Below, in pieces: positions 2,024 to 64,000 of a stretch of DNA of 64,000 nt (position 1 is its first letter; every line of letters begins with the position of its first letter). The DNA is from Dehalogenimonas sp. 4OHTPN (lineage in GTDB: Bacteria > Chloroflexota > Dehalococcoidia > Dehalococcoidales > Dehalococcoidaceae): positions 62,001 through 126,000 of the forward strand of contig NZ_CP159307.1 in the NCBI RefSeq assembly GCF_040448695.1, read 5' to 3'. The translations under genes and the position numbers were made by a program. Under the pieces are notes generated by a model. The model had not been told where the DNA came from. It ran no database searches and saw only the letters and a program-made list of their open reading frames with translations.

Positions 2024-2518
2024 TTAACCCCGAGCCTCAGCCTTACCGGCCTTTTGGAGTGCGGCATCGGTTATTCTCCTCAGGTAGCCGCTCAGCTGCT
2101 GTTTTTCTTCCACATTCAACATAGATATAAATCCCTCACGGTACCTTGAGGCTTCGACTCGCTCCAATATCTCGATGCCTTTGTCGCTTAAGGCAAGCTT
2201 GATTCTTCCTCGTTCGCCTTTTTTAATCGTTACCAGGTTTTTCCTGGACATCCGCCTTATCAGGCTAGAAATTGTATGGTGTTCCCGAATCATTATGCGG
2301 CAGATTTCATCGATCGAGATATCGTTTTTTGCTTTTATCAACCTCATCACCGTAGCCTGTTCCAAGGTAACGCCGTGTTTGGCGACTTCCTTCTCGCTCA
2401 GGCGGTAAATACTTTGCCTCGCCCGGAACAGACTGAATATCAAGTCAGCATCAGAAACTGACATTTGGCTTGCCCCTGAAGTCATATTAGAAGGTTTCTC
2501 CAGATTCATACGAAGCAT
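2024..2518 (-). CDS. MarR-family transcriptional regulator divergent from rdhA-1
   Basis: Winged-helix DNA-binding regulator of the MarR family. Residues from about LIFSLFRARQSIYRLSEKEV form the first helix. They are followed by a helix-turn-helix (ISIDEICRIMIREHHTISSLIRRM) and the basic wing (TIKKGERGRIKLALSDKG). MarR proteins usually repress divergent genes. This one faces rdhA-1 across about 170 bp, the usual arrangement for rdh loci in Dehalococcoidia, so it is inferred to control that gene. The start is uncertain: an ATG at 2518 and a GTG at 2524 both follow a GGAGG at 2529-2533, and the frame stays open to a GTG at 2545. The ligand cannot be inferred. Confidence 0.88.
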   Translation of the reverse strand: MLRMNLEKPSNMTSGASQMSVSDADLIFSLFRARQSIYRLSEKEVAKHGVTLEQATVMRLIKAKNDISIDEICRIMIREHHTISSLIRRMSRKNLVTIKKGERGRIKLALSDKGIEILERVEASRYREGFISMLNVEEKQQLSGYLRRITDAALQKAGKAEARG

Positions 2519-2568
2519 TTTAACACAGTTCCTCCAACCTATCACAATCAGCTTAACCTTTTCTTAAC

Positions 2569-2640
2569 TAAAAATACGCATATATGCTTACTAGTACTAG
2601 TCCTTAGGTACGATGTAATTTTACTAACGTTTGTTATAAT
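2569..2640 (+). promoter_or_regulatory. Promoter region of rdhA-1
   Basis: Four elements lie in order: TAAAAATACG at 2569-2578 (also upstream of rdhA-3 and rdhA-4), ACTAGTACT at 2590-2598 and ACGATGTAAT at 2610-2619 (both also upstream of rdhA-2), and a TATAAT -10 hexamer at 2635-2640. A 10-bp palindrome GCATATATGC lies at 2578-2587. No good -35 hexamer is seen, which fits a promoter that depends on a regulator. The shared blocks are read directly from the sequence; their role is inferred. Confidence 0.6.
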
Positions 2641-2685: not shown

Positions 2686-4083
2686 GTGAGTAAATACCAC
2701 GCAACCCTATCCCGCCGCGACTTCATGAAGGCTGTCGGTCTGGCCGGTGCTGGCGTCGGCATCGCCGGCGCTGTAGCCCCCAGTTTCAAAGACCTCGATG
2801 AATTAGCCGCTGCGGGGACCAAGGAGGTTCACCCCTGGTGGGTCAAGGAACGCGAAGCCAACAATCCCACCTCGGAGATCGACTGGAATCTCTTCAAACA
2901 GCTCGACAAGAAGACCACCGGCATGCCGACGGCCTCAGCCGAAAACGCGGCTTTCCGAAAGACCCGGGATGAGAAGTTCGATCTGGAAGGTTTGACCCAG
3001 AAAATTCCCGGCCGCGACGTCCGCTGTGCCGCCTTGGCCGATATGGTCACCGGCCTGCAAACCGCCGCCCCGTGGGATGGGCCTACCGGAATCACTCCGC
3101 CCCAAGAAAGGGGCGCCAGCCGCTGGGAAGGCTCTGCCGAGGATAACCTGACCATGTTGCGGGCTGCTTTCCACCTGGCCGGCGCCCAGATGACCGGCGC
3201 CCTGGAACTTAACGACAAGACGCTACAAATCTTCGACAAAGACGCCGTCGTCTTCGAGAACATAGACCAGGGCACCCAGGACGCCAAGAAGGTCTACCAC
3301 ATACCAAATAAAGCCAAATACCTCGTTGCATACTCAGTACAGCAGAACTACGTTCAGAGCCTGTATCAGCTCCGCGAGGACGAGGCTTATCCCGGCAAGT
3401 TAGCCATGCCTATGCCACTAGGCCGCCCGGCTATCCACCGCGCCTATGGCGACGGCCGCTACACCGAATGGCAGGCGATGCGCTTCATTAAGAACCTGGG
3501 CTACGGTGCCTACAAGGCTGGCGTAACCACCAACGTAGCGCTAGGTATCTTCTCCGGTCTGGGCGAACAGGGCCGAGCCACCTACATGATGACGCCCCGC
3601 GCCGGCCTTATGACCCGCATCACGAACTACATCATCACCGACCTCCCGGTGGCCGCCACCAACCCGATAGATTTCGGCGGCACCAAGTTCTGCGAGACCT
3701 GCATGCGCTGCGCCGAGAAGTGCCCCTCGGATGCCCTAGGCAAGCAAACCGAACCGACCTGGGAAGCCGGACCCGGCAACCGCCCCGGTTACCGCGGCTG
3801 GCGCGTCGACTGGCTCAAGTGCATCGAGGTTGGTGCCCCGTCCCGTTGCGGCGTTTGCCATACCCTTTGCCCGTTCAACCACCCGTCCGAAGGCATGATC
3901 CACCCGATAGTCCGCTCGGTGGCGGGCAATACCTCTGTCTTCAACCAGTTCTTCGCAGATATGGACCGGGTCTTCGCCTATGGCGAGCCCAAGAGCCATG
4001 AAGAACTCGAGGCCTGGTGGACTCGAGACCTCAACAAATGGAAGGGTGACGTCACCCACGGCACCGGCAAGTTCAACTGGTAA
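2686..4083 (+). CDS. rdhA: Reductive dehalogenase catalytic subunit (RdhA-1)
   Basis: Corrinoid and iron-sulfur enzyme that removes halogen from organohalides as the terminal step of organohalide respiration, exported folded to the outer face of the membrane. The 465-aa protein begins with a Tat signal (SRRDFMK at residues 9-15, then a hydrophobic stretch to about 35). It ends with two ferredoxin-type motifs: Cys336/339/342/346 and Cys379/388/391/395. The GTG start at 2686 follows AGGAGG at 2673-2678. No rdhB anchor gene follows. Instead there is a hairpin (4089-4123) and then radical SAM genes on the same strand. The halogenated substrate cannot be told from sequence; it clearly differs from RdhA-2 and RdhA-3. 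Confidence 0.95.
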   Translation: MSKYHATLSRRDFMKAVGLAGAGVGIAGAVAPSFKDLDELAAAGTKEVHPWWVKEREANNPTSEIDWNLFKQLDKKTTGMPTASAENAAFRKTRDEKFDLEGLTQKIPGRDVRCAALADMVTGLQTAAPWDGPTGITPPQERGASRWEGSAEDNLTMLRAAFHLAGAQMTGALELNDKTLQIFDKDAVVFENIDQGTQDAKKVYHIPNKAKYLVAYSVQQNYVQSLYQLREDEAYPGKLAMPMPLGRPAIHRAYGDGRYTEWQAMRFIKNLGYGAYKAGVTTNVALGIFSGLGEQGRATYMMTPRAGLMTRITNYIITDLPVAATNPIDFGGTKFCETCMRCAEKCPSDALGKQTEPTWEAGPGNRPGYRGWRVDWLKCIEVGAPSRCGVCHTLCPFNHPSEGMIHPIVRSVAGNTSVFNQFFADMDRVFAYGEPKSHEELEAWWTRDLNKWKGDVTHGTGKFNW

Positions 4084-4196: not shown

Positions 4197-5000
4197 ATGA
4201 CGACTGTCTCAAATAAGCCATCGATCTCCGTAACAGCCAAAAAACCGGAAAATTCACTCTGTGTTTACCACGTGGTGTACGAACCGACCTTTAAGTCGAT
4301 TATCTTCCACCATTGGACTGAATGTAATCTGAAGTGCCGCGGCTGCTACTGCCGGCGGGAGAAGATAGACTTTTCACTGCTGCCGGACTGGCAGGTACGC
4401 CTTTCCACCAACCCTCCTGAATCTCCCCCGGAGGTGTTGCTCTCTCTCAGCGAAACTCTAAAGTTGACAAAAGGGCTGGCGATTGATCGAGCTATTTTCA
4501 TTGGGGTAGAGCCGACGCTCGATCCTGGGTTGCCGCGGTTGGCGCATGAACTCAAGTCGCGGTACGGCAGCTACAACATATTGTTCACCAACGCTGTTAG
4601 CCTGCCGGACATCACCGACATTGACGAGATTATCGTCAGCCTCAAAGCCGTGACGCCGGAGGTCTACCGTCAATACACTGAAGGCGACAACCGCAAGACG
4701 CTTCAGAACTTCCGGCGTATTTATGAATCGGGCAAGAAACTGCAGGCTGAGATTACTTTCATCCCAGGGGTTATCGACGCCCCTGAGATCGAAGAGGCAG
4801 CGAAGTTCATCGGCTCGATCGATCGGAACATCCCGTTGAGGATTACCGGGTTTATCAAGCTCTCCAACATGGAATTCCGGGCACCGACCGGAGAAGAGGT
4901 CGAAGCCGCGGCGCGGTTGGCGATGAAGCATCTTGAGACGGTGAACTACCTTTCGGGCGACATGCCCCGGGTAGGCGAACCGCCGGTCAGACTATTTTAG
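4197..5000 (+). CDS. Radical SAM protein
   Basis: Small radical SAM enzyme (267 aa) with the canonical CX3CX2C iron-sulfur motif at Cys43, Cys47 and Cys50 (CNLKCRGC). It contains no recognisable B12-binding or SPASM domain. The fold resembles activating-enzyme-type radical SAM proteins, with IFIGVEPTLDPGLP near residue 100 in the position of the strand-2/GGEP region. It lies 113 bp after rdhA-1, is followed after 9 bp by a B12-binding radical SAM gene, and leads a four-gene operon. The substrate is unknown. A glycyl-radical-type activase role has no partner here, so I leave the function open. Confidence 0.85.
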   Translation: MTTVSNKPSISVTAKKPENSLCVYHVVYEPTFKSIIFHHWTECNLKCRGCYCRREKIDFSLLPDWQVRLSTNPPESPPEVLLSLSETLKLTKGLAIDRAIFIGVEPTLDPGLPRLAHELKSRYGSYNILFTNAVSLPDITDIDEIIVSLKAVTPEVYRQYTEGDNRKTLQNFRRIYESGKKLQAEITFIPGVIDAPEIEEAAKFIGSIDRNIPLRITGFIKLSNMEFRAPTGEEVEAAARLAMKHLETVNYLSGDMPRVGEPPVRLF

Positions 5001-5009
5001 AAGGTTTTT

Positions 5010-6482
5010 ATGCGAGTATTGCTGGTTAATCCGGGCTCCGAGGTCAACCCCCGATTCAATACCTACGCCGTTTTCCCGAACGGGCTTTTATTTTTAGCGG
5101 CGGTGCTGGAGCGTGCCGGGCATGAGGTCAAGGTCTACGACAACGTTGTCGACCGCCAAAAGCCGACTGATTTCAAAGACTTCAACCCCCAGCTTATCGG
5201 CTACTCAGTGCTGACCGGTCCGGACATCACCCAAGCTATCCTCCAGTCGAAGGAGTTCAAGACTCTCTATCCCGAGGCCAGGATCGTCTGGGGCAATGTC
5301 CATCCCTCCTGTACCCCGGAGCAGACGATGGCTGAAGAGTATATCGACTACGTCATCGTCGGCGCCGGCGAGACAGCACTGCTGCAACTAATCGATTATA
5401 TCGAAAAAGGTGCGCCGCGGCCGGTGGAAATCGCCGGGCTGGTCTATCGCGAAAACGGCCAGTTCAAAATGAATGAGCGGGCATCTGAACTCAAGAACCT
5501 GGATGAATTGCCCGACCCGGCCTGGCACCTTATCGACGTGCCCAAATACTGGCAGGTGTCCCTGAACACCTCCCGCGGCTGCCCGTTCCGCTGTACCTTC
5601 TGCTACAATTCCGCCTTCCATTCCGGCTACCGCGGCGATTTCTCCGCTGAACGCATTATAGCCCAGGTGGAGCACCTGCAGCAGAAGTACGGAGTTAAGT
5701 TCATCCGTTTCTTCGAAGATAATTTCACCTTCAACCGCAATAGACTGCACCGCTTCTGCGAGCTGGTGATCGAAAAGAAGATCAAGCTCAAATGGGACTG
5801 CGAGGCTCGGGCTGACCTGTCCGAGAAGGACGTGGACCTGATGGCTCGGGCCGGCTGTGTTAGTGTCGGCATCGGGGTGGAGACCGGCTCCAAGAGGCTG
5901 CTGGAGTTCCTGAAAAAAGATATCGATCTAGGTGTCATGCAAAAGAGTTTCTGGAACATTGTGCGGCACCGCATTATGCCGCGCATCTACATAATGGAGG
6001 CGGTGCCGACGGAAACGCTGGCGGACTACCAGGCGACCCGCGACCTGTTGCATAAAATGGGTGATACACCCTATTTCTATATGCGCTTCGTGCCATACCC
6101 AGGGACGCCGATCTATTACTATTGTATCGAAAAAGGGCTGATCAAACCTCCGGAGAAACTGGCCGACTGGCCGCACTTCTCTTTTAACCTGGCGACCCGG
6201 GGCAACCTGTCCGAAGTGCCGACAGAAGTGGTGACGGAAGCCTTCGCTGAATATGCCCGGACATACGGGCCGCGGCGGGTGCGCTTCATGTGGCGATACA
6301 ATAAGCGCTTTTTCCTCTCTATGATCAAGAACCCGCCGCAGTTCTTTGGAGCGGTTAAGGAACTGATCAAGAATACCCTGCCGGTGATGTTCAATAAGAA
6401 CACCAGCGAAGCGCCGGAGATCAAGGTAGAGGACATCCGGACCAAGAAACTGGCCGAAACCCAGTCCGAGGCAAAAAAATAG
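5010..6482 (+). CDS. B12-binding-domain radical SAM protein
   Basis: Two-domain enzyme of 490 aa. An N-terminal cobalamin-binding Rossmann-like domain (about 1-150, starting MRVLLVNPGSEVNPRF) is followed by a radical SAM core with CX3CX2C at Cys191, Cys195 and Cys198 (SRGCPFRCTFCYN). The family includes BchE-type cyclases and methyltransferases that act on unactivated carbon. It sits 9 bp after a smaller radical SAM gene and 2 bp before the ribonucleotide-reductase-like gene, so co-translation is likely. It lacks the C-terminal PqqD-like domain and the CX4CX2C spacing of the proteins at 37079 and 43301. Substrate unknown. Confidence 0.9.
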   Translation: MRVLLVNPGSEVNPRFNTYAVFPNGLLFLAAVLERAGHEVKVYDNVVDRQKPTDFKDFNPQLIGYSVLTGPDITQAILQSKEFKTLYPEARIVWGNVHPSCTPEQTMAEEYIDYVIVGAGETALLQLIDYIEKGAPRPVEIAGLVYRENGQFKMNERASELKNLDELPDPAWHLIDVPKYWQVSLNTSRGCPFRCTFCYNSAFHSGYRGDFSAERIIAQVEHLQQKYGVKFIRFFEDNFTFNRNRLHRFCELVIEKKIKLKWDCEARADLSEKDVDLMARAGCVSVGIGVETGSKRLLEFLKKDIDLGVMQKSFWNIVRHRIMPRIYIMEAVPTETLADYQATRDLLHKMGDTPYFYMRFVPYPGTPIYYYCIEKGLIKPPEKLADWPHFSFNLATRGNLSEVPTEVVTEAFAEYARTYGPRRVRFMWRYNKRFFLSMIKNPPQFFGAVKELIKNTLPVMFNKNTSEAPEIKVEDIRTKKLAETQSEAKK

Positions 6483-20141: not shown

Positions 20142-21047
20142 TCAGCTCTTGTCCGAACTTTCCAGCCTCCGCAATAAACCTTCGGCCATGGTCAACGGTA
20201 AGCCTTCTTTATAAATATCAGCCCAGGGATCCGGGCGGTTTGCTAAAAGGTCGAAAACAGTAACCATATTGAATTGTGCTGGTTTGAGATTGGGGCTGGA
20301 TAATTCCTCCCAGGTAATCGGCACCGCAACCGAGGCGCCTTCCTTGGCACGTACGGAATAGGGTGCCACCGCGGTTTGAGCGAAATGATTGCGGTTGGTA
20401 TCTATAAAAATACGGTTTCCTCTTTTAGCTTTGGATATCTCAACTGTGGTTTCATCCGGGTGTTTCCGCTGGTAGAACGCGGCTACGCTGTCAGCGAAGC
20501 TGTCAACCAGCCCGAAGTCAGCGCTCCGGTCCAAAGGTACAGCGAGGTGCACCCCGCGGCTGCCGGTGAGTTTAATGAAACATTTCAGGCCAAGCTCCCC
20601 TAGCAGCGCCCTCATTTGAAACGCCGTTTTCTTTACCAGCTCAAAATCTTCCACTGGGGGATCCAGATCAAAAACCAGCAAATCGGGATTACGTGGTTTA
20701 TCGGCGCGGGCCAGTGAAGTATGGATGACAATCACAGCCTGCTGCGCGAAATAGACCAGGTCCGCCGCAGAGTTCGCGGAGGCATAGTCGACAATATCCT
20801 TGACACCGAGCGGAATCCGTTTTATCCAGTCCGGGTAAGATGCAGGTGCCTGTTTTTGGTAAAAACCTTCGGCATTGATGCCGTCGGGAAAACGCTGAAA
20901 TGACAGCGGGCGGTCCTTGATGTGGGGCAGCATGACCGGAGCGATTTTTAAGTAGTAGCGGATCAACTCCCCTTTTTTGATCCCAGGGAACAACTCTTTT
21001 TCAAGATTAGTCAGCTCTATCCGGTGACCGTCAACGGTGGTTTTCAT
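20142..21047 (-). CDS. LigD-type DNA polymerase/primase domain protein
   Basis: Stand-alone PolDom of the archaeo-eukaryotic primase superfamily, 301 aa, as found in bacterial end-joining ligase D. Family features include LEKELFPGIKKGELIRYY near the start, RPLSFQRFPDG, the catalytic metal-binding FDLDPP, the TGSRGVHLAVPL region and APYSVRAKEGASVAVPI. LigD PolDom fills gaps and adds ribonucleotides during non-homologous end joining. No Ku, ligase or nuclease domain is found within the window, so partners must lie elsewhere. Confidence 0.9.
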   Translation of the reverse strand: MKTTVDGHRIELTNLEKELFPGIKKGELIRYYLKIAPVMLPHIKDRPLSFQRFPDGINAEGFYQKQAPASYPDWIKRIPLGVKDIVDYASANSAADLVYFAQQAVIVIHTSLARADKPRNPDLLVFDLDPPVEDFELVKKTAFQMRALLGELGLKCFIKLTGSRGVHLAVPLDRSADFGLVDSFADSVAAFYQRKHPDETTVEISKAKRGNRIFIDTNRNHFAQTAVAPYSVRAKEGASVAVPITWEELSSPNLKPAQFNMVTVFDLLANRPDPWADIYKEGLPLTMAEGLLRRLESSDKS

Positions 21048-35021: not shown

Positions 35022-35248
35022 AAGCCACCTTCACAATCAACGTTATCATCCTACTCTTGCCGCACCCGAAATTCCAGAGGCGATAGGGACAAATCAAAGC
35101 TTGTTTTCGTCCCGTTCCGATACCGGCGCGAAGCCGGGGTATTTTCTGGAGAAGCCCATGAAATTTTCGAAAAAAGCAGAAATTTTGGATTAAATAGTAT
35201 TAATCTCCGTATTCAATACCCTGATTAATGAAAATAAATCAGCATGGT
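35022..35248. other. Intergenic region between the Tat protein and rdhA-2
   Basis: No gene is seen. AT content rises from 35160 onward towards the rdhA-2 promoter. Inverted AT-rich segments (TTAAATAGTATTAA near 35190) could be regulator sites, but nothing is certain. Confidence 0.4.
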
Positions 35249-35294
35249 ACTAGTACTTCAGGACGATGAAATGTTATCGGGATAGGGTTATAAG
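35249..35294 (+). promoter_or_regulatory. Promoter region of rdhA-2
   Basis: ACTAGTACT (35249-35257), ACGATGAAAT (35263-35272) and a -10-like TATAAG (35289-35294). The first two blocks recur upstream of rdhA-1 at nearly the same distance from the start codon (91 versus 96, and 77 versus 76 bp). AAGGAG at 35326-35331 is the ribosome-binding site. Confidence 0.55.
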
Positions 35295-43300: not shown

Positions 43301-45442
43301 TCAAACGATAAAACTGTCGGCTTTAAGCGCCGCCAGGACGCGAAGGCAGCCCGCCTCGACCTGCCAACTTGAAAGCCCGTTCTTACGCGTCAATGAGCGA
43401 GAGATCTGGCGAATCGTATTCCGTCCGTTTGACAATCCCAAGATATCCCATGATACGGCGTCAAGCTGACATAAACGACGGGTAGCAGGATTAAAAACTA
43501 CCAACCGCCGTTGACGGACGTTCGGCGCAGATAATTGCCCGCGCACAAAGGCGGGAAGGTCAAAGTGTATGACTGATCGGGTCACACCGTCTGCCATGAG
43601 GGGCGTATAGTCTAAAGTCATTTCCAAAGACTCATTGACCAAACCATGGTATCTGTCCCCGGATGCCGGAATAGCGGCGCTTAAGTTAGACAAGCCTGGG
43701 TCGGTACTCTCATTGTGAGAGAGGTAGACCAGTAGATCCTCTTTCGAAAGAAACCGCATGATGTCATGGGTGGGATACGATAAGACGAGGCGATCCCAGG
43801 TTTTCCGGCTTAACGATTCAGCCTGGCTTCGGTTCAAGCCGGTTCTAGGTGAAAAATCGAACCCGACAGCCAGATAGCCAGTAGCATCTCCCGCAGGCAA
43901 ATCTATCCCGAATTCCTCCGGTGATGCTAAGACGGCAGAGCCGCGTGTTAGCGAAAAATGGCCGATATTGAATGAACGAATCACTTCACTGTTTTGCTCT
44001 ATAAAACTGATTGTTTCTTCCGCTTCTGCCAGCGTTTCACCCGGAAAACCGAGGAAGATGTAGAGGTGATCCCAAATGCCGGCGGCTACCAGGTTGCGGC
44101 ATACTGCCAGCGCCAGTTCCCGGGTAGTCCCTTTCCGCATCAAGCCCAGCACCCGGTCGCAGCCGGATTCGAGACCGATGTAAACCACGCGAAAACCCGC
44201 CTGGTACATCTCTTGGCAAAGGCTGCCATCGAATTGAGCTTCCAGGCGGATATTCGTCGAAAACCGGCAATCAGCCTTACTCTCGAGAAACGTTCGGGTT
44301 AGGCCCGACATCAGAGACGGAGCGATGGCCTCATCACAAAAGGAGAAATGCCTGACGTTGTAACGACGGGACAGGTGGTCGATATCGGCGGCAACCTTTC
44401 TGGGTACTGAGGGACGGTATCTGTTCTCATAGGAAACGTTGTGGGAGCAAAAAGCGCACTTGCCCCAATAGCAGCCGCGTGAGGCTAGAACCGGCAGGAC
44501 CGGTTCAGGCGATAAATACTTGCGGAGAACCAGGCCGTCAAAGTCCGGAGGCGGCAATTCAGCCATCGAATCGGGTGGCACAGGGGAATTCTTCCGGACC
44601 GTTTTACCGTCATACCAAATCAGATTCGGGACGTCCGTCAGGGTTTCGCTACGCTCCACCCTCTTGACCAACTCAAGCAATGGACGTTCGCCTTCGAGGA
44701 TGACAAGCGAATCGAAATACCTGGTGAAAAAGCCCGGGTGACTGCTAAACACGGATGCCAGCAAGGTCACCAGATAGCCGCCGAGGACAATATGGCACCC
44801 AGGAAGAGCTTTTTTTACCAGGCGAGCTAAAGTAAGACCAGGTATCAACTGGGACTCGGCGTTAATTGAAATACCTATCAGGTCGGGACCCTGATCTTTC
44901 AGCCACGGAGAAGTTTGTTCTTCAAAATACCCCAAATAAGGATTCTGGCTACCGTCCGCGGTCAAGATTTCAACGCTATCGAAACGGCCGTCAAATGACG
45001 GCATAGAAAACGACGTCAGCTGGAGACGGGAAGGGAAGTGTGCTGCCGAGACCACAGCCAGCGCGTCTTCCAGTGTTCGGCGGGCTTGGGATAGGGTGTT
45101 GGCATCGAAATACTGGTGATCATGGAAAACCGCTTTAGCTTCTTCGACAGTGGTGGAAATGGACTCAATAGATAATTTTGCCAGAAAAAGATCGGCATAC
45201 CGCTGCTGCTCTATTCCAGGCTCGAGACTGGCTTTGGTATCCAGAACAGTAAATCGGTCTTCGATGCGACCCTTCAATGACTGTAAATAGCGGCGGGAAA
45301 GGAAATGTTCATATGATTCGATGCTCAGATCTTTTTGAACGACATCGATGCCCTGTCCTTTCAAGAAAGCATACAGCGAAGGCATACCGAGAGGAGGCTG
45401 ATACGGTAGCCATTGCGGGGGAAAGAGCAGCACTACGTTCAT
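43301..45442 (-). CDS. B12-binding radical SAM protein with C-terminal PqqD-like domain (rdhA-3-linked)
   Basis: Protein of 713 aa and paralogue of the one at 37079: the N-termini match (NVVLLFPPQWLPYQPPLGM against KALLVFPPQWTPFRPYLSL) and the cores share RKYLSPEPVLPVL. The cluster motif is CX4CX2C at Cys324, Cys329 and Cys332 (GCYWGKCAFC). The final about 65 residues (FNPATRRLCQLDAVSWDIL onward) form a PqqD-like winged helix. It follows rdhA-3 on the same strand after 78 bp holding a hairpin. Substrate unknown. Confidence 0.88.
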   Translation of the reverse strand: MNVVLLFPPQWLPYQPPLGMPSLYAFLKGQGIDVVQKDLSIESYEHFLSRRYLQSLKGRIEDRFTVLDTKASLEPGIEQQRYADLFLAKLSIESISTTVEEAKAVFHDHQYFDANTLSQARRTLEDALAVVSAAHFPSRLQLTSFSMPSFDGRFDSVEILTADGSQNPYLGYFEEQTSPWLKDQGPDLIGISINAESQLIPGLTLARLVKKALPGCHIVLGGYLVTLLASVFSSHPGFFTRYFDSLVILEGERPLLELVKRVERSETLTDVPNLIWYDGKTVRKNSPVPPDSMAELPPPDFDGLVLRKYLSPEPVLPVLASRGCYWGKCAFCSHNVSYENRYRPSVPRKVAADIDHLSRRYNVRHFSFCDEAIAPSLMSGLTRTFLESKADCRFSTNIRLEAQFDGSLCQEMYQAGFRVVYIGLESGCDRVLGLMRKGTTRELALAVCRNLVAAGIWDHLYIFLGFPGETLAEAEETISFIEQNSEVIRSFNIGHFSLTRGSAVLASPEEFGIDLPAGDATGYLAVGFDFSPRTGLNRSQAESLSRKTWDRLVLSYPTHDIMRFLSKEDLLVYLSHNESTDPGLSNLSAAIPASGDRYHGLVNESLEMTLDYTPLMADGVTRSVIHFDLPAFVRGQLSAPNVRQRRLVVFNPATRRLCQLDAVSWDILGLSNGRNTIRQISRSLTRKNGLSSWQVEAGCLRVLAALKADSFIV

Positions 45443-45520: not shown

Positions 45521-46942
45521 CTAGTAGGTTTTGTGGTGGGCTGTGACCGATGTATCGAAACCAAGGGTGGGTTGAGCCAGATCCCACCAGCTTTCCTTAT
45601 CCTCACGCAAACCGTAGCCCCACCAGCTATCAGCCTTCCACAGGAAGCTGTTGAGCGCAGGCGTGGTCGCCAAAGCGGCTTTTACATAGCTGTGAACGGC
45701 AGCCGCACCGGTATTGAAGGTACAGGTAGCCATGCAGGTATGACAACCGCCGAAGGTGGCTTTCAAGCTCCAGCAATCAACGCCGTTAGTCCAGAACTGT
45801 TTCTTGCCGGGAACGTGAGTGGTGTCTTCCTTGCCGTAAATCTGCGGGATTTCCCATGAAGGCTCGTTATCCTGTGAGATCGAATTCGTCGGGCAGGCGT
45901 CAGCGCATTTGTGACAGGTATGGCAGAAGCGCCAGATACCGGCGTCGACAGGCGGGGTTGGTTCGACTGGAATATCCATAACCACGCTGAAGGCTCCGGT
46001 TACCGTGCCGTACTCCGGGCTGATGCAGACACCATTGTTACGGCCTCCTTCAACCAGGCCAGTGAGCGTATTAGTAGCAATAGTCGGAATAGCCCCGCAG
46101 ACCGGGGTGGTATAACCGTAGATCTGGTAGCCCAGCATCCGGGCGAATTGTTGCAAGCGCGTTTGGACAATCGACCATTGGCTGTAGCGGATGGAGTTGC
46201 CGGCGCTGGCAATATCTGAACTGGGTGTAGTGCGGAACATTTCCTTAGACAGCGGATGGAGAAACGCCATATCGTATAGGGGTACTGAAGAAGGGAAGAC
46301 TAGCTTGTCCTTAGCCTCGTAGCCGAGCGGAACATCCTCAAAGACATACTTCTGGTGGGCGGCGGCCTTATCATACTCACGGACGAGCTTATCCTTGACC
46401 TTCTGGTCAATTTCAGCGAAGCCGACAGTACCCATGCCGTAGAAACGGGCGGCGGCACGCAGCATCTTGCTGTTCTCTTCCGGGGAGCCTTGCCACTTGG
46501 GTACTCCCATTTGTTCCGGTGTTTTAGCTGACTGCAAACCCATGAAACTGATGGTAGCCTGATAAAGGCCACCGGAGAGGGCTCTGTCGCGAAGGTTCAT
46601 CCCCGGTGTGCTGTTTTTAAGTGTCTCGGTAGAAAACGCTGCTGCTTCAGAAGAACGTTTTTGCCGTTCTGCGTCACCCATGAAGTAGGTCTGGCATGAG
46701 CCGTCCTGGCCGGTCCACTTGCCGTCGGAACGGTACATTTGGCTCCAGTCTAATTCTACGGTAGGTTCATCAATTTCACGGTTCTTGATCCACCAGGCGC
46801 GCTTGAACTGTGCTGACTGAGAGCCGATCAACTCATCAAGGTCGTTAAAACTCGGAGCAGTCAAAGCGACAGCGCCTGTGGCGGTAAGCCCAAGTGCTTT
46901 CATGAACTCACGGCGACTGACAGTGCTGTGAAACTGTGTCAT
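45521..46942 (-). CDS. rdhA: Reductive dehalogenase catalytic subunit (RdhA-3)
   Basis: RdhA of 473 aa with Tat signal (SRREFMK, residues 9-15) and cluster ligands Cys340/343/346/350 and Cys390/400/403/407. The ATG at 46942 overlaps the TAA of a 26-aa upstream frame (TAATG) and follows AAGGAG within that frame. No rdhB gene follows; after a hairpin comes a B12-binding radical SAM gene. A MarR gene diverges from it. Its closest visible relative in the window at the signal region is RdhA-2 (FHSTVSRREFMK in both). Confidence 0.95.
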   Translation of the reverse strand: MTQFHSTVSRREFMKALGLTATGAVALTAPSFNDLDELIGSQSAQFKRAWWIKNREIDEPTVELDWSQMYRSDGKWTGQDGSCQTYFMGDAERQKRSSEAAAFSTETLKNSTPGMNLRDRALSGGLYQATISFMGLQSAKTPEQMGVPKWQGSPEENSKMLRAAARFYGMGTVGFAEIDQKVKDKLVREYDKAAAHQKYVFEDVPLGYEAKDKLVFPSSVPLYDMAFLHPLSKEMFRTTPSSDIASAGNSIRYSQWSIVQTRLQQFARMLGYQIYGYTTPVCGAIPTIATNTLTGLVEGGRNNGVCISPEYGTVTGAFSVVMDIPVEPTPPVDAGIWRFCHTCHKCADACPTNSISQDNEPSWEIPQIYGKEDTTHVPGKKQFWTNGVDCWSLKATFGGCHTCMATCTFNTGAAAVHSYVKAALATTPALNSFLWKADSWWGYGLREDKESWWDLAQPTLGFDTSVTAHHKTY

Positions 46943-47022
46943 TATTTTCTCTCCTTTATAAATGAACTAAATTTGCAGTCTTTGCCGCTGTCATCCGGTC
47001 TCTCCCGGGTGCCATTAGTCAT
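46942..47022 (-). CDS. 26-aa leader ORF upstream of rdhA-3
   Basis: Frame of 26 codons from ATG 47022, with a good AAAGGAG ribosome-binding site 7 nt upstream, ending in TAA that shares its last base with the rdhA-3 ATG. The peptide begins MTNGTRERPDD, has one Cys and ends in basic residues. The TAAAAATACG promoter block lies 95 bp upstream of this ATG, close to the 105-117 bp seen at rdhA-4 and rdhA-1, which supports it as the first translated frame. It is probably a translational-coupling leader. Confidence 0.55.
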   Translation of the reverse strand: MTNGTRERPDDSGKDCKFSSFIKERK

Positions 47023-47062: not shown

Positions 47063-47117
47063 ATCATATGGTAACACAATATTCTATATAGAACATCCGC
47101 TAAATGACGTATTTTTA
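47063..47117 (-). promoter_or_regulatory. Promoter/operator region of rdhA-3
   Basis: Reading on the minus strand: TAAAAATACG (47117-47108), GCGGAT (47100-47095), the perfect 12-bp palindrome TTCTATATAGAA (47093-47082) and a -10-like TATGAT (47068-47063). The first two blocks recur upstream of rdhA-4 with identical 7-bp spacing. The palindrome is the size of a MarR operator, and a MarR gene diverges from here. Confidence 0.6.
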
Positions 47118-47227: not shown

Positions 47228-47725
47228 ATGTTCGGCAATTCGGAAACTCTAGAAAAAATTATGCCGCAAAAAGTCATTTCTTACACCGACCCGACGCTGG
47301 ATATATGGGCGCGTTTCATGAGGACGCGGAATCTTCTATATAAGGTGTTCGCCCGTGATTTAAGGGAACTGGGAATCAAGCCCGAGCAACTCGGCATTCT
47401 GAATATTTTGAAGAAAATAGAAGGACCCGTTACGCCGGCGATGATTTCCAGGGTTTATAGACGCGAACCGCAAACGGTGTCGGTCAACTTGAAACGGCTG
47501 GAAGGGCGGGGATTGGTTAAACTGGTTAAAGACCTGGAGAAACGCAACATGATACGCGTGGAAATAACTGATGCTGGGATTGCGATCTGGGAACTTGGGA
47601 GAACCAAAACGGCAGCGGTGAGCCAAGCGTTTAAAGTGTTGTCACCGGACGACCTGATTCAATTAAGCTTGATCATCGATAAGCTGTCCGATTCAGCGCA
47701 ACAAGTGCTGAAATCCCATTCATAA
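47228..47725 (+). CDS. MarR-family transcriptional regulator divergent from rdhA-3
   Basis: Winged-helix regulator of up to 165 aa. The helix-turn-helix region is VTPAMISRVYRREPQTVSVNLKRL, followed by the wing (KDLEKRNMIRVEITDAG). It diverges from rdhA-3 and its leader, so it probably controls them through the palindrome at 47082-47093. The start may be the ATG at 47228 or the one at 47261, neither with a strong ribosome-binding site. It is not closely similar to the MarR protein at 2024. Confidence 0.88.
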   Translation: MFGNSETLEKIMPQKVISYTDPTLDIWARFMRTRNLLYKVFARDLRELGIKPEQLGILNILKKIEGPVTPAMISRVYRREPQTVSVNLKRLEGRGLVKLVKDLEKRNMIRVEITDAGIAIWELGRTKTAAVSQAFKVLSPDDLIQLSLIIDKLSDSAQQVLKSHS

Positions 47726-63546: not shown

Positions 63547-63645
63547 TAAAAATACGCATATTGGCGGATACCTAAAACAAACGCAGGTATTTATAATATT
63601 AACGTAATCTTAGGCGCAAGCAGTAATCAGATGCTGTTTAGCGCC
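63547..63645 (+). promoter_or_regulatory. Promoter and leader of rdhA-4
   Basis: TAAAAATACG (63547-63556) and GCGGAT (63564-63569), spaced as at rdhA-3, then TATAAT (63592-63597). The predicted 60-nt leader holds a hairpin with an outer GGCGC/GCGCC stem (63613-63617 with 63641-63645) and an inner AAGCAG/CTGTTT extension. GGAGG at 63654-63658 is the ribosome-binding site. Confidence 0.6.
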
Positions 63646-63665: not shown

Positions 63666-64000
63666 ATGAACAAGTACCACAGCACCATGTCACGCCGGGA
63701 CTTTATGAAAGCTCTCGGAGTCGCCGGTGGCGCCATGGCCGCGGCACCTGCGTTTGCCGATCTGGATGAAATGGCAGCCAAAGACGGCCTGTACACCAGG
63801 CGGCCTTGGTGGATCAAGACCCGCGAACACCTCGAGATGACCACCGATGTCGATTGGGACGAGATGCAGCGCTATTCCGAGAATGACACCATGCGCGGCA
63901 CCAAGGCCAGCGGGTACCGGCTGTCACTCTACGACCAGGCCGAATGGGACCGTCGGGCCGCGGTCAAAAAGGAGGAAGAAACCAAATTCCTCAAAGAAGA
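63666..64000 (+). CDS. rdhA: Reductive dehalogenase catalytic subunit (RdhA-4), cut by window end
   Basis: The first 111 codons of an RdhA: Tat signal SRRDFMK at residues 9-15, Ala-rich h-region, then the RPWWIKTREHLEMTTDVDW segment that matches the WW(I/V)K...(I/V/L)DW pattern of the other three. The cluster motifs lie beyond the window. The ATG is 7 nt after GGAGG. No regulator lies upstream within the window; clpC and its terminator precede it. Confidence 0.93.
   Translation, partial: MNKYHSTMSRRDFMKALGVAGGAMAAAPAFADLDEMAAKDGLYTRRPWWIKTREHLEMTTDVDWDEMQRYSENDTMRGTKASGYRLSLYDQAEWDRRAAVKKEEETKFLKE

Follow-up and report, generated by a model that had tools for sequence, protein, structure and literature searches.

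In Desulfitobacterium, the activator CprK controls dehalogenase genes from a dimer site near -41.5, the dehalobox, whose consensus is TTAAT-N4-ATTAA. The NarL heptamer, a half-site of another regulator family, has the consensus TACYYMT. In Dehalococcoides mccartyi CBDB1, the MarR protein Rdh2R reportedly binds as a repressor to an operator that is a direct repeat lying over the transcription start. For Sulfurospirillum, the RR2 site CTATW-N17-CTATW has been described (PMC7755780). A recent genus-wide study of Dehalogenimonas found regulators of the two-component, MarR and CRP types in the vicinity of rdhA, together with one 6-bp palindrome at one promoter (PMC13390414), and the IP3-3 genome paper found most rdhA loci to be without such regulators (PMC4918011). 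Across Dehalogenimonas, most rdhA loci lack an adjacent regulator (PMC4918011, PMC13390414). Here we analyse a candidate control site, termed the class-1 element, in a window of 64,000 nucleotides, bases 62001-126000 of the closed 1.75 Mb genome G000, a Dehalogenimonas as judged by its genes and relatives, in which 33 rdhA were analysed. The element is absent from the description given in the genus-wide study (PMC13390414), and a search of the open-access literature, with subscription papers outside it, found no earlier description of the motif.

Results and Discussion

The features of the window are collected in Table 1. A sequence-only reading had proposed that the arrangement TAAAAATACG-N7-GCGGAT stands in front of both rdhA-3 and rdhA-4, and both copies are indeed exact. 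When up to three mismatches are allowed, the window contains 5 matches against 0.51 expected, and five were reached in none of 100 shuffles. The 10-mer TAAAAATACG by itself is unspecific, since an extra copy lies at 20405-20414. Against the class-1 profile the two elements score E 5e-6 (rdhA-3) and E 8e-9 (rdhA-4) in a search of the window, both sites being part of the training set, and the rdhA-3 element is retained in the orthologous promoters of genomes G007 and G004.

Table 1. Positions of the elements, promoter hexamers and genes in the window.
Feature	Position	Strand	Basis or remark
marA, divergent MarR-like gene	2024..2545	-	PF12802, E 1.5e-5, below cut-off
class-2 box of rdhA-1, AAAAATACGCATATATGCTTACTAGTACTAGTCCTTAGGTACGATGTA	2570..2617	+	profile R2, E 3e-15 in window (site part of training set)
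-10 of rdhA-1, TATAAT, 19 bp past class-2 box	2635..2640	+	
rdhA-1	2686..4083	+	PF13486
class-2 right part before rdhA-2, GGTACTAGTACTTCAGGACGATG	35245..35270	+	profile R2, E 0.0013 in window, outside training set
rdhA-3	45521..46942	-	PF13486, E 3e-46
probable -10 of rdhA-3, TACCAT, gap 21	47068..47073	-	orthologous promoters
palindrome TTCTATATAGAA between rdhA-3 element and -10	47082..47093		candidate operator of neighbouring MarR protein
class-1 element of rdhA-3, TAAAAATACGTCATTTAGCGGAT	47095..47117	-	exact match
marB, divergent MarR-family gene	47228..47725	+	PF12802
class-1 element of rdhA-4, TAAAAATACGCATATTGGCGGAT	63547..63569	+	exact match
-10 of rdhA-4, TATAAT, 22 bp past element	63592..63597	+	
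rdhA-4	63666..64000, beyond window edge, end G000:127081	+	Tat signal MNKYHSTMSRRDFMKAL; PF13486 over G000:125798-126646

The distances to the start codons needed one correction. Those of 117 bp (rdhA-1) and 119 bp (rdhA-4) stand, while the 95 bp given for rdhA-3 lead to the ATG of a leader ORF at 47022; the start codon of rdhA-3 itself, at 46942, is 175 bp from the element. This leader ORF of 26 codons, MTNGTRERPDDSGKDCKFSSFIKERK, runs from 47022 to 46942 (-) and terminates at the rdhA-3 start, which suggests that the two are translationally coupled. The -10 offsets of 45-49 bp hold if counted from the first base of the element (45 and 49), but the rdhA-3 orthologues favour the -10 at gap 21, which reads TATCAT in G007 and TATAAT in G004, over the alternative TATGAT at gap 26.

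The sequence-only reading had named many occurrences at unrelated genome positions as grounds for its refutation, but these are absent from the genome-wide scan. G000 holds 3 exact copies and 1 with a single mismatch, and all four head rdh transcription units: besides those of rdhA-3 and rdhA-4, the copy at G000:1340533 (-) heads a B12-radical-SAM gene with two rdhA behind it, and that at G000:1445779 (+) heads a response-regulator gene leading to the rdhA at 1447829. The mismatch scan covered 41 genomes. With up to two mismatches, the 11 genomes of the family gave 41 matches versus 7 for a reversed-pattern control, and the 30 other genomes of the order gave 24 versus 24, which is chance level. 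An extended 27-base pattern found one exact match in a collection of ~85,000 species, about chance by our estimate, with near relatives possibly outside that scan. Some matches were discarded. The 2-mismatch match ATACGTAATTATACGTAT at G000:8785 is kept in G007, is not rdh-linked and was missed by the profile, and AAAAATACG...GCGGAT matches within one conserved gene of G008 and G009 are due to chance. NarL-adjacent variant sites in G015 and G037 looked at first like independent support; we did not use them because matches in that phylogenetic range equal the control rate.

Conservation was analysed with a training alignment of 28 sites from nine genomes. Because these had been picked for their rdh-linked promoter position (with one exception, G003:289582, which heads a class II ribonucleotide-reductase gene), the test of rdh linkage rests on the later matches. 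The consensus is ATTAAAAATACGCATnTTGGCGGAT, with T-3, A-1, T7, A8, G10, G18, C19, G20, A22 and T23 invariant in all 28. A sequence-only profile built from these sites was run over 11 genomes, opposite-strand reads of the training palindromes being left uncounted, and yielded 20 sites beyond the training set (E<0.02). Sixteen of them lie 80-225 bp upstream of a same-strand rdhA. Three more are rdh-linked in other ways, one divergent to rdhA, one 940 bp upstream of rdhA and one heading a zinc-ribbon/rdhA-like operon, and the last heads a class II ribonucleotide-reductase gene. Elements before class II-like ribonucleotide-reductase genes were seen in two genomes (G003:289582 and G006:C3:154659). 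In G010, a Dehalococcoides-like genome of 1,469,720 bases, the same profile search found no convincing site. As judged from these comparisons, the class-1 element is a real, lineage-specific control site beyond chance, and it is found at a fixed position in more than 50 predicted rdh-linked promoters of Dehalogenimonas and close relatives.

In the promoters, a TATAAT-like -10 follows the element at a gap of 20-22: 24 of the 28 training sites have one, as do 17 of the 24 in the held-out set. Overall, 41 of 52 sites have it, compared with an average of 4 in shuffles; the shuffle mean is 1.9 per set, and none of 2000 shuffles reached the observed count. The final base of the element is also the first of the -35 position. 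A fair TTGAC-like -35 is present in about one third of the sites, chiefly those ending in GCGTAT, and the others are poor, giving a mean score of 2.30 of 3.9 versus 1.72 at random. Because the element abuts the -35 with a fixed gap to the -10, the midpoint of its repeat falls near -42, where class II activators sit: a centre near -41.5, a weak -35 and a fixed -10 distance are all found. A role at the RNA level was rejected, since the element lies upstream of the -10.

The element contains an imperfect inverted repeat, ATACGC-N6-GCGKAT. Every site has complementary bases at 7-22 and 10-19; the pairs 6-23, 9-20 and 11-18 hold in about three quarters of the sites. The invariant pairs, as read from the alignment, fit an inverted and not a direct repeat. 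NarL-type 7-2-7 inverted heptamers are perfect or near-perfect in several sites (such as AATACGCATAAATGCGTATT and AATACGCCATTTGGCGTATT) and imperfect in most; the repeat can also be read as a CRP-like 5-6-5 site or, weakly, as a direct repeat of 10 bp.

The half element noted at rdhA-1 has to be reassigned. The 10-mer TAAAAATACG is present at 2569-2578, but it belongs to a related 46-bp class-2 box, AAAAATACGCATAAAGTCCAATGGTGACTAATCCTTTGGTACGATG, which is followed 19-20 bp further on by a -10-like hexamer. This box is common to the rdhA at 64686 (rdhA-1), 235307, 717096, 1414885, 1458975, 1472096 and 1474043 of G000, with boxes at 716876, 1414708, 1458870, 1471894 and 1473814. The class-2 profile finds more boxes across the genus, and the right part GTACTAATACTTTAGTACGATG also occurs in Dehalococcoides-like genomes. 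Since the left arm AAAAATACGCAT (AAATACGCAT) is common to both, the class-1 and class-2 sites seem to be sisters; between them they cover roughly 20 of the ~35 rdhA in G000.

Two further observations concern the transcription units themselves. Units of element-driven rdhA also encode radical-SAM proteins (43301-45442 (-), 4197-6482 (+) and G000:1338944-1340425), and a B12-binding domain is present in three of these proteins. In addition, a candidate new 5'-UTR RNA element was noticed some 36-80 nt ahead of rdhA starts, a hairpin whose GANAGA hexaloop is invariant. It lies at 46996-47007 (-) in the window and also at L088:5150-5240, and is present in 33 of 104 rdhA leaders, up to three times in tandem. 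The three innermost positions pair in all 37 distinct copies, with covariation in the outer pairs; a three-hairpin leader fold has a z of -4.2. No copy was found on the antisense strand of rdhA leaders, and the stretch tested gave no Rfam match for it.

Which protein could read the element? A common regulator of rdh genes had been suggested by the sequence-only reading, and this idea is strongly supported by specificity, genus conservation, held-out prediction and fixed promoter position; the MarR binder and the rdhA-1 half are the two parts of it that find no support. A regulator gene adjoins the site in 16 of 52 cases (seven MarR, five NarL and four OmpR), so that neighbouring genes alone do not decide on a family. 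The sequence data point to a shared control protein that would mostly not be encoded beside the genes it controls. NarL-type regulators with a GerE domain are present in all 11 family genomes, and a NarL-type gene lies within ~1 kb of five element-driven promoters. These five proteins and G000:501578 form one clade (support 0.98), marked by a VK[KG]...NRTQ helix, and the divergent intergenic region beside G000:501578 contains TACGCATAAAATACGATG. In G007, which has six or more elements, no clear member was found, so this clade would not be the sole binder. Taken as a whole, the element is probably the site of a trans-acting dimeric activator, with a NarL/FixJ-type protein as the most likely binder. 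Taken singly, activation would be the likely mode of action, and the assignment to a NarL-type protein acting in trans is quite possible, at a little less than an even chance. The fair TTGAC-like -35 in about one third of the sites makes repression through overlap a possibility.

An OmpR-type response regulator, bound to two direct half-sites spaced by 10 bp (CGNAT-N5-CGNAT), is an unlikely alternative to a NarL-type binder, although one orthologous group (G000:1445779 and relatives) has an OmpR-type pair flanking the site and Sulfurospirillum pceAB is controlled by an OmpR-type regulator overlapping the -35 (PMC7755780). The inverted repeat fits the conservation better, the invariant positions 7 and 8 are not repeated at 17 and 18, and rdhA behind OmpR pairs elsewhere in G000 (1412785, 1438344) are without a good element.

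Still less probable is that the divergent MarR proteins marA and marB bind the element and repress rdhA. Palindromes of ~20 bp are targets of MarR dimers, the element has marB homologues beside it in G000, G007, G004, G008 and G009, and according to the genus-wide study a Dehalococcoides MarR protein reportedly represses rdhAB by binding the rdhA promoter (PMC13390414). Against this, a search at E<=0.001 found no marB homologue in G001, G002, G003 and G006, all of which have several conserved elements, and marB was rejected as the common regulator. Moreover, the marB-linked promoters carry separate repeats that are better MarR candidates. The palindrome TTCTATATAGAA is conserved as TTCTATRTAGAA in the spacer of the three marB-linked promoters, and no spacer palindrome of this type was found at the other aligned class-1 sites. 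In G008:C1 and G009:C1, the marR-rdhA promoter has the 14-bp direct repeat ACGAACATTATGAT in tandem, past the predicted -10.

We regard as equally improbable a CprK-like activator of the CRP/FNR family reading TACGC-N6-GCGTA as a 5-6-5 site centred near -41.5. Its class II spacing and 5-6-5 geometry agree, and most of the genomes possess CRP-type genes, but G008 has the element and no HTH_Crp_2 match, none of the contexts examined has a CRP-type gene adjoining a site, and the 28-site consensus differs from that of the dehalobox. Finally, rdhA are multicopy and mobile, yet a chance likeness or functionless inheritance by recent rdhA promoter duplication is very improbable: the element is kept between differing flanks, at promoters whose rdhA proteins share just ~30-50% identity, it also precedes radical-SAM, response-regulator and ribonucleotide-reductase genes with fixed -10 spacing, and this spacing and the held-out test contradict such an origin.

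For the NarL-type activator we propose the following mechanism. The element would serve sigma-70 promoters of rdh units as an operator, an imperfect palindrome of 23-30 bp (TNAYTAAAAATACGYNNNNTGGCGKAT) that abuts a mostly weak -35, with the -10 about 21-22 bp beyond and its own centre near -42. A trans-acting dimeric regulator would bind it and recruit RNA polymerase (class II activation), so that several scattered rdhA would be switched on together. NarL/FixJ-type dimers would cover paired half-sites like TACGCAT-NN-ATGCGTA, and the class-2 box is possibly read by related regulators. Where local MarR repressors exist, they may exert a second level of control from sites of their own, which lie between element and transcription start. 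In its widest form, the proposal is a tentative one, with the odds somewhat against it: a single NarL-type regulator acting in trans, or a few of them, would form a family-wide switch of organohalide respiration, with the two box classes on ~20 of ~35 rdhA as well as on B12-radical-SAM and class II ribonucleotide-reductase genes, and most rdhA without a neighbouring regulator would be controlled remotely.

Conclusion

The element gives a rule for locating rdh promoters and, being fixed in position, a handle for the affinity purification of its binder. It may predict the groups that switch on together among a genome's 30 or more dehalogenases, which bears on predicting the dehalogenases that act at contaminated sites. 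Compared with known systems, the element resembles the Sulfurospirillum RR2 site in that a response regulator overlaps the -35 of a dehalogenase promoter (PMC7755780), the response regulator being our assumed binder in the class-1 case. The RR2 site differs in being a direct repeat of another sequence, read by the OmpR family. Like the operator reported for Rdh2R, the element is a cis-element of rdhA promoters, there in a sister genus, but it takes the form of an inverted repeat, lies upstream of the -35 and is also present without marR; G008 and G009 have both kinds of repeat at one promoter, the ACGAACATTATGAT tandem resembling the Rdh2R operator as it is reported. The CprK dehalobox is alike in its position near -41.5 and unlike in its sequence. 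With NarL heptamer pairs and DevR boxes the element shares 7-2-7 inverted half-sites starting with TAC and an activator position near -42, although TACGCAT stands here in place of TACYYMT and NarL binding would be by analogy; the class-2 box shares with the NarL/DevR family tandem boxes ~20 bp apart. As a regulon motif, the class-1 element is new but of a well-known kind.
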